In this document: piece after piece, positions 44,968 through 51,632 of the stretch
How the letters are laid out: each line of letters begins with the position of its first letter
Position numbering within the stretch: the stretch's first letter is position 1
Assembly: GCF_021631985.1 (NCBI RefSeq)
Contig: NZ_CP070225.1
Span: forward strand, 6,634,001 to 6,698,000
Origin: Sandaracinus amylolyticus
GTDB taxonomy: Bacteria; Myxococcota_A; Polyangia; Polyangiales; Sandaracinaceae
Direction of reading: 5' to 3'
Length of the DNA: 64,000 nucleotides
The notes under the pieces: model-generated
What the model was told of the DNA's origin: nothing
The model's database searches: none
The model's input: the letters and a program-made list of their open reading frames with translations, nothing else
Made by a program: the position numbers and the translations under genes

Positions 44968-45176
44968 ACGACGGACCACTACTCGAAAACACGACGAGCG
45001 TGCCGTGAGCGTCCGCGCGTCACGCGGGGAGATCCCCGACTCTGGTGGAGGACTGGAATCCACTCTCCAGCGCAGGACGGGAATCATCCCGAGCCCGAAT
45101 GAATATCCTCGTCTCGCGATCTTTACGGCCTCCGCGAGACGCCGGACGATGCTGGATAGGAGTTGGAGGGGAAGAC

Positions 45177-46250
45177 ATGCGCGCGATCGGATCCGATCTG
45201 GTGGTCCTTCCCGAGCCGGAGGCCGAGCTCTACGGGCGCGACGAATCGCCGCGATTTCGACTACGAGCTCCCGCGCATTGGCGATCACCGATTGCCATCA
45301 ACCCGCATGCGCGAGAGGCGGAGCGAGTCGTGATTCGATGGCTCGAGCATCTCGGATGCACGAACGACGAAATCCATCGAGCGCGCCAGTTCGACGTCGC
45401 GGGTTACGTCGGAATTCCCTTCCCGCGCGTCTCGTGCGAGACGACGATCCGAATCGCAAAACATCTCTCGCTGTGGTTGCTCTGGGACGACGTTCACGTC
45501 GAGTCACTGGAGCACGGTTGGCGGATCGAGCCCGCGCACGTGCTCGAGTCCCGACGTCCCGAAGGGCTCACGCGCTTCGACGAAGGCTGGTGGGAGCTCT
45601 TCTCGGAGCTCGCCGCGCGGCGGAGCGCGCGTTGGCTGCGAGACCTGTGCGACGCGATGATCGCGTGGAGCGACTCGGCACGAGCGGAGGCGATCGCCAT
45701 CGATGCGTGGCACCGGACCGGCGTGCTCCCGACGTTCGAAGAGCAGCTCGAGACGCGCATCGTCACGATCGGCATGTACCCGACGCTCCATCTGCTCGAG
45801 GACGCGCTCGATCACGAGCTCCCGCGCGAGCTCCACGAAGACCCGGTGGTGGCGCAGCTCGCGAGGACGTCCGGCGAGATCGTCGGGCTCGGCAACGAGA
45901 TCTTCAGCTTCGGGAAGGACTTCGCGCTCGGGCGGCTCAATCTCGTCTCGACGCTCATGCACGAGGCCGATCTCTCGGGCGGCGAAGCGCTCGAGGAGAT
46001 CGTGCGGATGCACGATCGCGCGCTCGAGAGATACGACCGGCTCGCAGCGTCCCTCGGCAGCTGGGGCGCGGCGGAAGATCCGTGGGTCGCGCGGTGGCTC
46101 GAGGACATCCGCCATGCGTCGCTCGGATTCAGCCTCTGGGAAGCGCGCGCTCCGCGTTACGCGGCGCACAAGGTCGTCGTGCACGGGCTCGTCGTCGAGC
46201 CGTCGTTCGTCACCGTGGAGGACGCCGACATCGGCAGGAGGTTCGGATGA
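45177..46250 (+). CDS. Class I terpene synthase
   Basis: 357 aa; GGAGGGG precedes the ATG. Signature residues are all found: the metal motif in [10 protein letters not shown] (Asp104, Asp105, Glu109), the pyrophosphate-sensor Arg194, the NSE triad NEIFSFGKD (Asn240, Ser244, Asp248, with Asp in place of the usual Glu) and Arg327-Tyr328. Arg194 is exactly 46 residues before Asn240, as is usual for bacterial terpene cyclases. It cyclises a prenyl diphosphate, most likely a sesquiterpene precursor given the size; the product is unknown. It overlaps a STAS-like gene by 4 bases. Confidence 0.9.
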
Positions 46251-46675
46251 CCCTGAGTGTCTCGACCAGTGGGCCATTCATCGACGTCGTGGTCACGAAT
46301 GCGCTCGAGCCGGCGGATCTCGCTGCGCTGGTGGATGCGATCGAGAGGGCCCGTCGGATGGGGCCTTTCGTCGTGCTCACCGACACGCTCGCGATGAGCT
46401 CGGTGTCGCCTCAGGTCGCATCGGACTTCGCGGACGCGCTGAAGCGGATGCCGCCGCTGAAAGACGTATGGATCGGTGATGCGGTGGTCGTCAGCTCGGC
46501 AGTCGCGCGATTCGTGCTCTCGCGCCTGATCATCGTCGCTCCGCTCCCGACCGAGGTGAAGGTCTTCGACTCCCGCGCTCCGGCGCGGCAGTGGCTCGCA
46601 TCGGTGCTCGACCGCAACGGCGTGCGTGTCCCGAGCTCGCTCAGGGGGCTCGAGAACACCTCCAAGACCGCATGA
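46247..46675 (+). CDS. STAS/SpoIIAA-like protein coupled to the terpene synthase
   Basis: 142 aa, starting in the ATGA overlap with the synthase stop. [47 protein letters not shown] and VWIGDAVVVSSAVARFVLSRLII have the strand-helix order of single STAS/SEC14-like domains, also seen at 11226-11612. Such domains bind proteins or hydrophobic ligands, so a partner or product-binding role for the synthase is conceivable. There is no membrane segment. Confidence 0.65.
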   Translation: MTLSVSTSGPFIDVVVTNALEPADLAALVDAIERARRMGPFVVLTDTLAMSSVSPQVASDFADALKRMPPLKDVWIGDAVVVSSAVARFVLSRLIIVAPLPTEVKVFDSRAPARQWLASVLDRNGVRVPSSLRGLENTSKTA

Positions 46676-48407: not shown

Positions 48408-48508
48408 GCGCCGTGAGCTCTCCTCACCCTCACCCAGGAAGACGGCAGAACCGCCGTACCTACCACCCGCCGCCGCACGCCGAAGCCTTTCCGTGTTACC
48501 CACCCCAC

Positions 48509-50542
48509 ATGTCGCTCGGCCCGCACCCGGACCCAGTCTTCCGCCAAGCCCAGGCGCAGGGTCTCACCCACGTCTATCACGGTGAGATCAACGACCGCGT
48601 CGCGCGCTACGTCGCGAGCGCGCCCTTGCCGGCCGAGCTGTCGGGCCGCGTGCTCTTCACGGTCTTTCCGTACGAGGCCGTGTTCGACGAGCACACCGCG
48701 CGCTTCGCGCATCCACACATGCTCACTGCGCCGGGTCGCGTGCTCGCGATCGATCTCGATCCCGACGGCGCCGGAGAGCATCGCCTCACGCTGCGCGCGC
48801 TCGACGTGCAGTCGCAGCACCTGCGTGCGATCGCGCCGCAGGCCACCGTGCGCACCGACTTCGCGGAGGTGAGCTGGCTCGGCCTCGCGAACCTCGCGAA
48901 CACCACGCCGGTCCCCACGTTCGAGATCGGCAGCGGCGGACGTCGCCTCGTCGTCTCGTACGACGCCGGTCGTCCCACCGAGATCGATCCGCGCGGGCTC
49001 TGTCACGTCAGCCCGATCGGCAGCGCGCGCGACTACGAGTCCGCGGTGGGCAGCTCGTTCTCGCCGATGATCATGACGAGCGGCCATCCCGTGTACGACC
49101 CCGCGTTCGACTCGGGCCGTCCCGCGCTGCTCTTCACCAACGTCGTTCCGCGCGTGCTCGACTTCGTCACGCCGTTCTCGCAGCGCATCGTGCGCGGCGA
49201 GCTCTTCGTGACCTCGTGGGACGGCAGCTCGCGCGGCCCGGCGCGCCCGATCCGCGTCTACGTCGACGGCGATCCCGTGACGATGGAGCAGGCCTCGGCA
49301 CACCAGATCTGTCTCACCAAGGATCATCTCCTCGTCTTCAACGCGAACCTCGTGCTCAACACGTCGGCGCTCGCGGAGCCGATCCTCGGGCTGCTCACCG
49401 AGGAGGTGCGGCGCAAGCTCCCGTCGTTCGCGCGGCCCGCGCTCGACGCGATGTGGCGGCCGATCGAGAAGTTCCTGCGCGCGCCCGTGCCCGGCACCGC
49501 GTGCGACCTCTACATCATCCCGAAGGAAGCGCTGCGCCGCGCGCTCGACGACGACGAGAGCCGCCGCGTCGATGCGATGCGGGTGCGCCTGCCCGGCGAG
49601 CTCAGCCACGCGATCGCCGACTGGGACGACTCGAGCGGGCACATCACGTTCTACGCGCAGCACAACATCGGCGCCGATCCCGCGGATCAGATCCACGAGA
49701 ACGACGAGCTCGCGACCGGCGATCGCGTCGACGATCGTTATCGCGGGCTCTTCACGCACGCGACCGATCTGAACCAGGTGCGCAAGCACGTGGTGCACGT
49801 GACCTCGAGCACCGCGACGTTGCTCTCGACGACGTCGTTCCCCGATCCTGCGAGCCCGAGCGCGTTCAAGTACGGCGTGAACCTGCTCCCGCCGTGTCAG
49901 CCGCTGCCCTACGAGCTCGCGGGCGGGACGAGCGCAGCGAGCAGCCTCGCGACGCAGCTCCGCACGCAGACGCACACGTACTGGATCGCCGGCGGGTACC
50001 TCCCCGAGATCATGGCGGTGCGCACGTTCGACGACTTCCGCGCGGCGCGCACGCCGAGCCAGCGGTTGATCCCGGAGGCGCAGTTCCTCTCGAAGCTCGT
50101 CGATCCCGCGAACACGACGCAGCTCTTCCGGCTCGACGCGGATCTGAATCTCGAGAGCGCGCACTCGTTCCCGCCGGGATGGCTGATGAGCGCGCCGATC
50201 TACGTGCCGCGCGCGGGCGGGACGACCACGAAGGACGGATGGCTCGTCGGCTGCGTGACGGCCCCGACGCACCCGCACGCCGAGATCTGGATCTTCGACG
50301 CACAGCAGTCGCTCGCCACGGGACCGATCGCGAAGCTCACGCCCGCGCCCGACGAGATCGGCCTGCGTCCCGGCTTTCCGCTGCACGGGTCGTGGATCGA
50401 TCGCCAGGGGATCGAGGGCTGGGAGCGCCCCGACCTGCGCGCCGCGATCGTCGACCTGCCTCGCTACGTGAAGGTCGTCGAGACCGCGGTGATGGCCGGA
50501 GGCTTCGCCCGCCGCGCGCTGTCGCAGCTCCTCACGGGATGA
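48509..50542 (+). CDS. Carotenoid oxygenase (RPE65/CCD family)
   Basis: 677 aa from the ATG at 48509, longer than the usual 480-550. Family blocks are present: LANTTPVPTFEIGSGGRRLVVSYDAGRPTEIDPRGL, AHQICLTKDHLLVFNANLVLN, WLMSAPIYVPRAGG, DGWLVGCVTAPTHPHAEIWIFD and FPLHGSWID with its iron-ligand His. It should cleave a carotenoid or apocarotenoid double bond using non-haem iron. The N-terminal half is more divergent and the other His ligands need alignment. The 3' end carries a tandem palindrome. Confidence 0.85.
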   Translation: MSLGPHPDPVFRQAQAQGLTHVYHGEINDRVARYVASAPLPAELSGRVLFTVFPYEAVFDEHTARFAHPHMLTAPGRVLAIDLDPDGAGEHRLTLRALDVQSQHLRAIAPQATVRTDFAEVSWLGLANLANTTPVPTFEIGSGGRRLVVSYDAGRPTEIDPRGLCHVSPIGSARDYESAVGSSFSPMIMTSGHPVYDPAFDSGRPALLFTNVVPRVLDFVTPFSQRIVRGELFVTSWDGSSRGPARPIRVYVDGDPVTMEQASAHQICLTKDHLLVFNANLVLNTSALAEPILGLLTEEVRRKLPSFARPALDAMWRPIEKFLRAPVPGTACDLYIIPKEALRRALDDDESRRVDAMRVRLPGELSHAIADWDDSSGHITFYAQHNIGADPADQIHENDELATGDRVDDRYRGLFTHATDLNQVRKHVVHVTSSTATLLSTTSFPDPASPSAFKYGVNLLPPCQPLPYELAGGTSAASSLATQLRTQTHTYWIAGGYLPEIMAVRTFDDFRAARTPSQRLIPEAQFLSKLVDPANTTQLFRLDADLNLESAHSFPPGWLMSAPIYVPRAGGTTTKDGWLVGCVTAPTHPHAEIWIFDAQQSLATGPIAKLTPAPDEIGLRPGFPLHGSWIDRQGIEGWERPDLRAAIVDLPRYVKVVETAVMAGGFARRALSQLLTG

Positions 50543-50678: not shown

Positions 50679-51632
50679 ATGGCTTCGCTCACTCCGTTCA
50701 AGCAGGGTCGCTTCGAAGAGCTCCCCGACGTGCCTCGCATCGCGCACGGCTTCTTCGAGCGCGAGACGATCGACGTCGACGTCGCGTGGGGACCGCGCCG
50801 CCGCGCGCGCGTGCACGTGCGCAAGCACGGCAGCGGACCGCCGCTGCTCCTGCTGCACGGCCTGATGACGTCGAGCTACTCGTGGCGCTACGTGCTCGCG
50901 CCGCTCGGCGAGCGCTTCACGTGTTACGCGCCCGATCTGCCGGGCAACGGCAAGAGCGAGCCCTGCCTCGACGGGTCGTACTCGCCGGCGTCGTTCGTCG
51001 AGTGGATCGCCGCGCTGCAAGACGCGCTCGGCATCGGCGCGGCGCCGTGCATCGCGAACTCGATGGCGGGTTATCTCGCGATGCACGCGGCGCTCGAGGG
51101 TGTGGGCTTCGAGAAGCTGATCCAGGTGCATGGCCCCGGTCTTCCCGAGGCGCGATTCGCCGCGCTCGGCATCGCGCTCTCGCTCCCGTTCGCGCACGAC
51201 GTGCTCGGTGCGGTGATCGCGCGCGACCCCGAGCGCTGGTGCCACCGCAACGTGCACTACTACGACGAGACGCTGAAGTCGCGCGAAGAGGCGCGCGAGT
51301 ACGCGGAGCCGCTGCGCACGCCCGAGGGACGGCGCGCGCTGAGCAAGTACCTGCAGGAGACGATGTCGATCGGCCCGATGCGCGCGCTGCGCGATCGACT
51401 GAGCGCGCGGCGTGATCGCGGCGAGCCGTTCCCGGTTCCGCTGATGTTCCTCTATGCGCGACGCGACCCGATGGTCCCGGCGCGCATCGGCACCGAGTAC
51501 GCGAAGCTCGTCCCCGACGCGCGCTTCGAGTGGGTCGAGGACGCGTCGCACTTCGCGCACGTCGATGCACCGGAGCGATTCCTGCCGCCGGTGACGTCGT
51601 TCTTGAACGATCGTTCAAGACGCGCGGCGTGA
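50679..51632 (+). CDS. Alpha/beta hydrolase
   Basis: 317 aa. The oxyanion segment is LLLLHGLMTSSYSWRYVL, the nucleophile lies in ANSMAGYLA (Ser128; elbow N-S-M-A-G rather than G-x-S-x-G), the acid is in ARRDPMVP (Asp263) and the base in DASHFAHVD (His291). The fold resembles haloalkane dehalogenase- or MhpC-like hydrolases. Substrate unknown. It follows the carotenoid oxygenase by 136 bases and could act on the same pathway, but the palindrome between them makes an operon uncertain. Confidence 0.88.
   Translation: MASLTPFKQGRFEELPDVPRIAHGFFERETIDVDVAWGPRRRARVHVRKHGSGPPLLLLHGLMTSSYSWRYVLAPLGERFTCYAPDLPGNGKSEPCLDGSYSPASFVEWIAALQDALGIGAAPCIANSMAGYLAMHAALEGVGFEKLIQVHGPGLPEARFAALGIALSLPFAHDVLGAVIARDPERWCHRNVHYYDETLKSREEAREYAEPLRTPEGRRALSKYLQETMSIGPMRALRDRLSARRDRGEPFPVPLMFLYARRDPMVPARIGTEYAKLVPDARFEWVEDASHFAHVDAPERFLPPVTSFLNDRSRRAA

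Follow-up and report, generated by a model that had tools for sequence, protein, structure and literature searches.

In the 64,000-nucleotide stretch of Sandaracinus amylolyticus DNA analysed here (the window), a gene for a class I terpene synthase (P0001) runs into a gene for a small SpoIIAA-like protein (P0002), and this pair recurs in unrelated gene neighbourhoods of other genomes; it is not a local accident. Such recurrence suggests that terpene synthesis has a helper or controller not described so far.

The synthase and its overlapping partner gene

P0001 is assigned to the class I terpene synthases by profile, motifs and predicted fold, its cyclisation activity being putative. It scores 103.8 bits against PF19086 (cut-off 23.7) and 28.7 bits against PF03936 (cut-off 26.3), and a fold search with its model ranked sesquiterpene synthases first, with 1-epi-cubenol and T-muurolol synthases among the matches. 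We read the protein as a soluble class I enzyme, probably of the sesquiterpene synthase type. The initial annotation had credited the synthase with all class I residues, and the D104/D105/E109, R194, NSE and R327-Y328 positions are indeed all present (Table 1; invariance was judged in an alignment of four family members). We take D104-D105-x-x-x-E109 and N240/S244/K247/D248 to be the metal-binding Asp-rich and NSE motifs and R194 to be a candidate diphosphate sensor; residue 241 is E in P0001 and D in its relatives. Two other assignments were considered and rejected. As a cargo terpene cyclase of family 2 encapsulins, P0001 reaches 53.0 bits against a cut-off of 400 for NF041167 (NCBIfam). As for sandacrabins as the product of the pair, the available text of the Sandaracinus defensii paper invokes a farnesyl transferase, not a cyclase (PMC9306752).

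Table 1. Features of the synthase-partner pair in the window
Feature	Coordinates	Strand	Basis or remark
Intergenic region separating the pair from a divergent metallo-beta-lactamase-fold gene	44971..45176	.	from ORFs
P0001 gene, class I terpene synthase, 357 aa	45177..46250	+	PF19086 E 1.3e-29; model mean pLDDT 86
Asp-rich motif DDVHVE codons, residues 104-109	45486..45503	+	D104, D105, E109 invariant (family alignment)
R194 codon	45756..45758	+	invariant (family alignment); 46 residues before N240
NSE-type motif NEIFSFGKD codons, residues 240-248	45894..45920	+	N240, S244, K247, D248 invariant
RY pair codons, R327-Y328	46155..46160	+	invariant (family alignment)
AGGAGG, ribosome-binding-like, within the synthase 3' end	46236..46241	+	5 bases before partner ATG
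ATGA, partner start overlapping synthase stop	46247..46250	+	exact in sequence
P0002 gene, SpoIIAA-like (STAS/SEC14-fold) partner, 142 aa	46247..46675	+	PF11964 23.8 bits; model mean pLDDT 81

The overlap of the synthase stop with the start of the 142-aa gene was described correctly from the outset, with exact coordinates and strand. The intergenic stretch ahead of the pair is the probable, predicted promoter region. On its far side lies the divergent metallo-beta-lactamase-fold gene (PF00753), on the minus strand from 44083 to about 44970, its start being placed from the copy in a second genome of the genus (G001); it scores 121 bits against the YtnP lactonase model, below the cut-off of 425. 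Downstream of the pair and on the same strand are an RPE65-type carotenoid-oxygenase-like gene (48413-50542) and an alpha/beta hydrolase gene (50679-51632), both kept in G001.

The score of P0002 against PF11964 is slightly below the curated cut-off of 25, as are those of orthologues in G001 (23.4 bits) and in a metagenome-assembled genome, L061 (24.9 bits), while relatives that adjoin synthases elsewhere exceed it (37.9 bits in G183, 34.0 bits in G295). The predicted model has the strand-helix order of a SpoIIAA-like fold, and its top solved folds are the Shewanella proteins 2ook_B (Z 11.2, rmsd 2.5, 110 residues aligned) and 2q3l_A (Z 10.8, rmsd 2.9, 113 residues aligned). Close runners-up are a STAS domain (4xs5, Z 10.2), SpoIIAA (1h4y, Z 10.0) and RsbS (6jhk, Z 9.4), and yeast-type Sfh5 follows at a Z of only 8.0. 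On the model, then, the fold appears nearest to the Shewanella SpoIIAA-like proteins and nearly tied with true STAS regulators, and by itself would not decide between them. A sequence search of the PDB with P0002 gave nothing meaningful (best E 0.079). Assignment to ordinary STAS domains was rejected, as Pfam shows SpoIIAA-like and DUF7793 families and no STAS match. A narrower name than the 'STAS' first given to the partner, that of the SpoIIAA-like (PF11964/DUF3478) branch, fits better.

Recurrence of the pair and of related genes at synthase loci

The initial annotation had asked whether the pair is conserved. It is, in five genomes: that of the window (G000), G001, G257, G275 and L061, a groundwater Deltaproteobacteria MAG counted once, which has two synthases and a P0002 orthologue after each. 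Partner identity to P0002 is 88% in G001, 55% in G257, 47% in G275 and 48 and 46% in L061. The synthase of G001 is 83% identical; conservation there says little because the whole region is syntenic with the window. The remaining cases came from wider searches. A scan of a genome collection gave three synthase relatives with 53-55% identity in the best segment, namely L061, L062 (Enhygromyxa salina) and L063 (a Myxococcaceae MAG whose synthase is cut off at a contig end). When 377 genomes of the phylum were searched with a synthase alignment, 9 of them had a match at E<=1e-20, among them G257, where the partner directly follows the synthase, as it does in G275, found through the class search. 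When the L061 and L206 stretches were compared with the window at E<=1e-8, only antisense frames of the pair were common besides the pair itself, and the L074 stretch shares with it, besides the pair, only one distant kinase-type ORF. First gene calls had missed partner genes (e.g. L061 16287-16700, L074 and L206), which were found by six-frame profile searches. The genome-by-genome search covered the Myxococcota, with one collection scan and plasmids (no P0002 match on the latter) searched elsewhere, and we make no claim that the pair is restricted to this phylum.

The architecture of the pair is also largely kept. The ATGA overlap is present in five of six pairs (the window, G001, G257, G275 and the second L061 pair), the first L061 pair having a 40-base gap instead. 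The AGGAGG sequence 5 bases ahead of the partner ATG occurs in G001 as well and is missing from that place in G257, G275 and L061. Compared with G001, the synthase has a dN/dS of 0.28 and the partner one of 0.27, indicating that both genes are under purifying selection. Enhygromyxa (G171, G592) and G169 have close synthases, yet whole-genome searches at E<=1e-4 found no P0002 orthologue in them, so that the partner is dispensable; the synthase frame of G169 has one in-frame TGA.

Beyond these orthologues, related SpoIIAA-like genes adjoin many other myxobacterial synthases, again in agreement with the idea of a recurrent partner. PF19086 was found in 63 of 317 genomes of the class, and we took a sample of its synthase matches, 100 windows with 1,336,210 bases in total, omitting most two-domain geosmin-type synthases and some weak matches. 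The synthase profile recognised a synthase in 96 of these and failed in four (L142, L218, L221, L222), which are counted among the 100. A first partner profile, built only from the partners in G000, G001, G008 and L061 and applied to windows outside this training set, marked 11 SpoIIAA-like ORFs in 9 genomes of 4 genera, all 11 abutting a synthase; the probability that a random gene of partner size abuts a synthase in the 100 windows is 0.031. With a wider profile, 18 windows were marked at E<1e-4, and all 20 matches lay at most 986 bases from the synthase domain. Among 14 further windows (16 less L267, chosen for its partner, and L268, a repeat), six had a match at E<1e-3, at 248-1,649 bases from the synthase domain and none farther, one of the further windows, L256, having also been found through the partner. 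All of these distances were taken from profile domains or open frames, not from exact gene ends. Synthase-adjacent ORFs made up part of the training set of the later profiles (sp3, sp4), which biases their counts towards the hypothesis; the count of 11 of 11 rests on the first profile only.

Orientation varies among these loci. In genus g78 the partner is upstream of the synthase (7 loci in 6 genomes, with gaps of 18-23 bases at the four loci measured), G167 has two synthases with a convergent partner at each, and at some loci the convergent or divergent arrangement means that the two genes do not form one operon. Partners adjoin unrelated class I synthase subfamilies. A quick tree was made of 102 synthases, with some doubt over several of its long branches; placing the partner label on it takes 13 changes, of which at least 6 are forced by well-supported branches, and 13 of the 15 rows in the window's own clade have a partner. 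As far as sequences tell, the partner is tied to one synthase clade and recurs in others.

Cases at class II, squalene-hopene-cyclase-like genes are suggestive only. The single P0002 match of G005 is divergent from a gene of this type with a fused MpaB/rubber-oxygenase domain; two g30 genomes have a weakly similar ORF ahead of a squalene-hopene-cyclase-like gene. A fusion of this kind (PF13243 + PF09995), with a divergent SpoIIAA-like gene, occupies L024 5430-8441. Elsewhere (L243 1200-1914, in G297) a SpoIIAA-like gene precedes a 91-codon synthase remnant, apparently a duplicated pair with a decayed synthase. Near the synthases of L255, L257, L258, L259, L265, L177 and L216 we noted small ORFs of another, more distant type, whose motif resembles VTD-RL-RG-TAVSWLG and which may represent a further branch of the SpoIIAA-like fold.

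The background frequency of SpoIIAA-like genes was taken from 12 genomes searched at E<=1e-5. Nine hold 1 to 8 copies (G000 and G001, 6 each; G309, 8; G275, 3; G257, G167 and G160, 2 each; G008 and G183, 1 each), and three g78 genomes (G293, G294, G295) hold 36, 37 and 42. Both copies of G167 are at synthase loci, as is the sole copy of G008 and of G183. The five other copies of G000 (L002, L003, L005, L006, L007) adjoin genes unlike terpene genes, and the SpoIIAA-like family as a whole is thus not a terpene family.

Possible roles of the partner

The initial annotation had suggested that the partner could control the synthase or carry its product. Our leading reading, held tentatively, is that synthase and partner form a dedicated pair in which P0002 is most likely a carrier of hydrophobic terpenoids or a product-release helper for the synthase. 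Translation of the partner would be coupled to that of the synthase, and the partner would act with it as a small CRAL-TRIO/SEC14-type carrier. A nonpolar cyclic product or an isoprenoid substrate could enter a nonpolar cavity between partner helices 2 and 3. The partner might thereby help product release from the enzyme and deliver the terpenoid to the membrane or to the next enzyme. Product release is often the slow step in such synthases. We favour this role because the partnered enzymes share a nonpolar product, because the nearest structures have been described as CRAL-TRIO-like carriers and because there is a SEC14-like precedent (discussed below). Several observations weigh against it. 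The fold is undecisive, with 4xs5, 1h4y and 6jhk close behind the Shewanella structures; the hydrophobic moment of P0002 helix 3 is low, which gives no help to the idea of membrane insertion; and stressosome-like genes at three synthase loci (G008, L061, L063) point to regulation instead. The Enhygromyxa and G169 synthases that do without the partner and the varying orientation also weigh against it, and the synteny of G001 takes weight from the conservation there.

It is possible, though we consider it rather unlikely, that the partner is instead a regulatory STAS-type subunit that switches the synthase on or off by direct binding under RsbT/RsbW-like kinases and phosphatases, whose genes would lie nearby or elsewhere in the genome. 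Gene context provides the main argument for such a subunit. In G008, a run of genes for a SpoIIAA-like protein, a HATPase, a SpoIIE-type phosphatase, an RsbS-like STAS protein, an RsbR-like STAS protein and an RsbT-like HATPase lies upstream of the synthase and ends directly at it. The same kinds of genes lie between the two synthase-partner pairs of L061, and in L063 a HATPase, a STAS gene and a small ORF, which we read as SpoIIAA-like without a Pfam match, are divergent from a fusion of HMG-CoA reductase and synthase. In that fusion (L063 2721-4304) the reductase (PF00368, 338.7 bits) continues in frame into the N-terminal part of the synthase, where the contig end cuts it. Five g137 genomes (L187, L190, L191, L192, L198) also have a tandem of two PAS-STAS (RsbR-like) genes immediately ahead of a synthase, which would fit regulation, as would the closeness of the P0002 model to SpoIIAA and RsbS. 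Kinase/STAS and PAS-STAS genes are common in these genomes, and we set aside the large kinase/STAS genes adjoining g82 synthases (L143, L144, L146, L147) and single PAS-STAS neighbours (L195, L217).

The residues expected of a phosphorylated antagonist argue against a regulatory subunit. Across six orthologues including P0002, the position of S52 is S, T, A, A, S and S and that of S54 is S, S, P, P, P and P, so S52 is replaced by T or A in three of five orthologues and S54 by P in four of five; with the equivalent position chosen by eye and phosphosite equivalence our own reading, no phosphorylatable Ser/Thr is conserved among the six where helix 2 begins. G000 has four module-type HATPases, none of them near the pair; a kinase or sigma factor gene to go with the partner is absent from the window and present beside the L061 pairs and in G008 and L063. 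G257, G298 and G295 have both a module and a synthase, on different contigs. HATPases related to these were found in 69 of the 377 genomes. Among 19 loci centred on a module away from synthases (L123-L141), the first SpoIIAA-like profile marks one (L135), which indicates that such modules do not regularly include a SpoIIAA-like gene. A broader proposal, which we think improbable, would make terpene synthases the effector outputs of stressosome-type partner switching, with SpoIIAA-like adaptors gating or localising cyclases, a whole RsbR/S/T/X-like module wired to the synthase in G008, L061 and L063, and stress signals switching terpene production at the protein level. In G008 the synthase would then occupy the position behind the rsbT-like gene that in Bacillus belongs to the phosphatase RsbU.

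We likewise regard it as unlikely that the partner is co-regulated with the synthase and acts elsewhere, for example on membrane effects of the terpene (tolerance) or at a later pathway step. Such a role would suit the variable orientation among loci, the occasional absence of the partner and the SpoIIAA-like genes beside unrelated genes in G000. The ATGA overlap in five of six pairs suggests matched amounts of the two proteins and speaks for closer cooperation, and the partner recurs while other neighbours do not. Finally, a chance join without function, inherited and copied with the synthase, is very improbable in view of the adjacency counts (11 of 11 first-profile matches, 6 of 14 further windows), the several partnered synthase subfamilies and the purifying selection on both genes, even though g78 genomes carry 36 to 42 SpoIIAA-like genes and G001 is wholly syntenic.

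Relation to known systems

Both protein families are known, and their recurrent pairing appears to be undescribed in the searchable literature. Few myxobacterial terpenes have been linked to genes, and work on bacterial terpene synthases usually treats them as lone enzymes. The initial annotation knew of no described STAS partner of a terpene synthase, and nothing in the full-text literature searched, which leaves most subscription papers outside, contradicts this: it holds no description of a terpene synthase or cyclase paired with a STAS, SpoIIAA-like or anti-sigma factor antagonist protein. As to a link between sesquiterpenes and the stressosome, the only mention of a sesquiterpene in the available text of a Streptomyces SigB paper is in the reference list.

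Among characterised proteins, the Shewanella structures 2ook and 2q3l (DUF3478/PF11964) resemble P0002 most, being single-domain proteins of the same length class and the closest solved folds. The available text on them describes these SpoIIAA-like proteins as CRAL-TRIO-like and possible carriers of nonpolar compounds; they differ from P0002 in sequence (14-17% identity), and that text mentions no terpene synthase (PMC2954212). A parallel in mode of action is offered in principle by supernatant protein factor (SEC14L2). Like other SEC14 carriers, this protein is eukaryotic and larger than P0002. It is SEC14-like and, according to the text available, stimulates the conversion of squalene to lanosterol (PMC7385082). 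Family 2 encapsulins and cyclic-nucleotide-binding proteins found with geosmin or 2-methylisoborneol synthases are likewise recurrent non-enzymatic partners, differing from our pair in both fold and synthase type; for encapsulins in geosmin clusters, terpene trafficking has been proposed in the part of the source available (PMC12224551). With the SpoIIAA/RsbV/RsbS antagonists and the RsbRST stressosome P0002 shares the STAS fold, and such genes are present at three synthase loci, whereas P0002 lacks a Pfam STAS match and its orthologues have no conserved Ser where helix 2 begins.

The recurrent partner offers a direct and cheap hypothesis on synthase activity, product release or product identity. 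If true, the partner could explain the poor activity of some synthases when expressed alone, and the SpoIIAA-like gene would serve as a marker for finding terpene loci. The pairing would then provide bacteria with a counterpart of SEC14-type terpenoid carriers, or else stressosome-like signalling with a new output.
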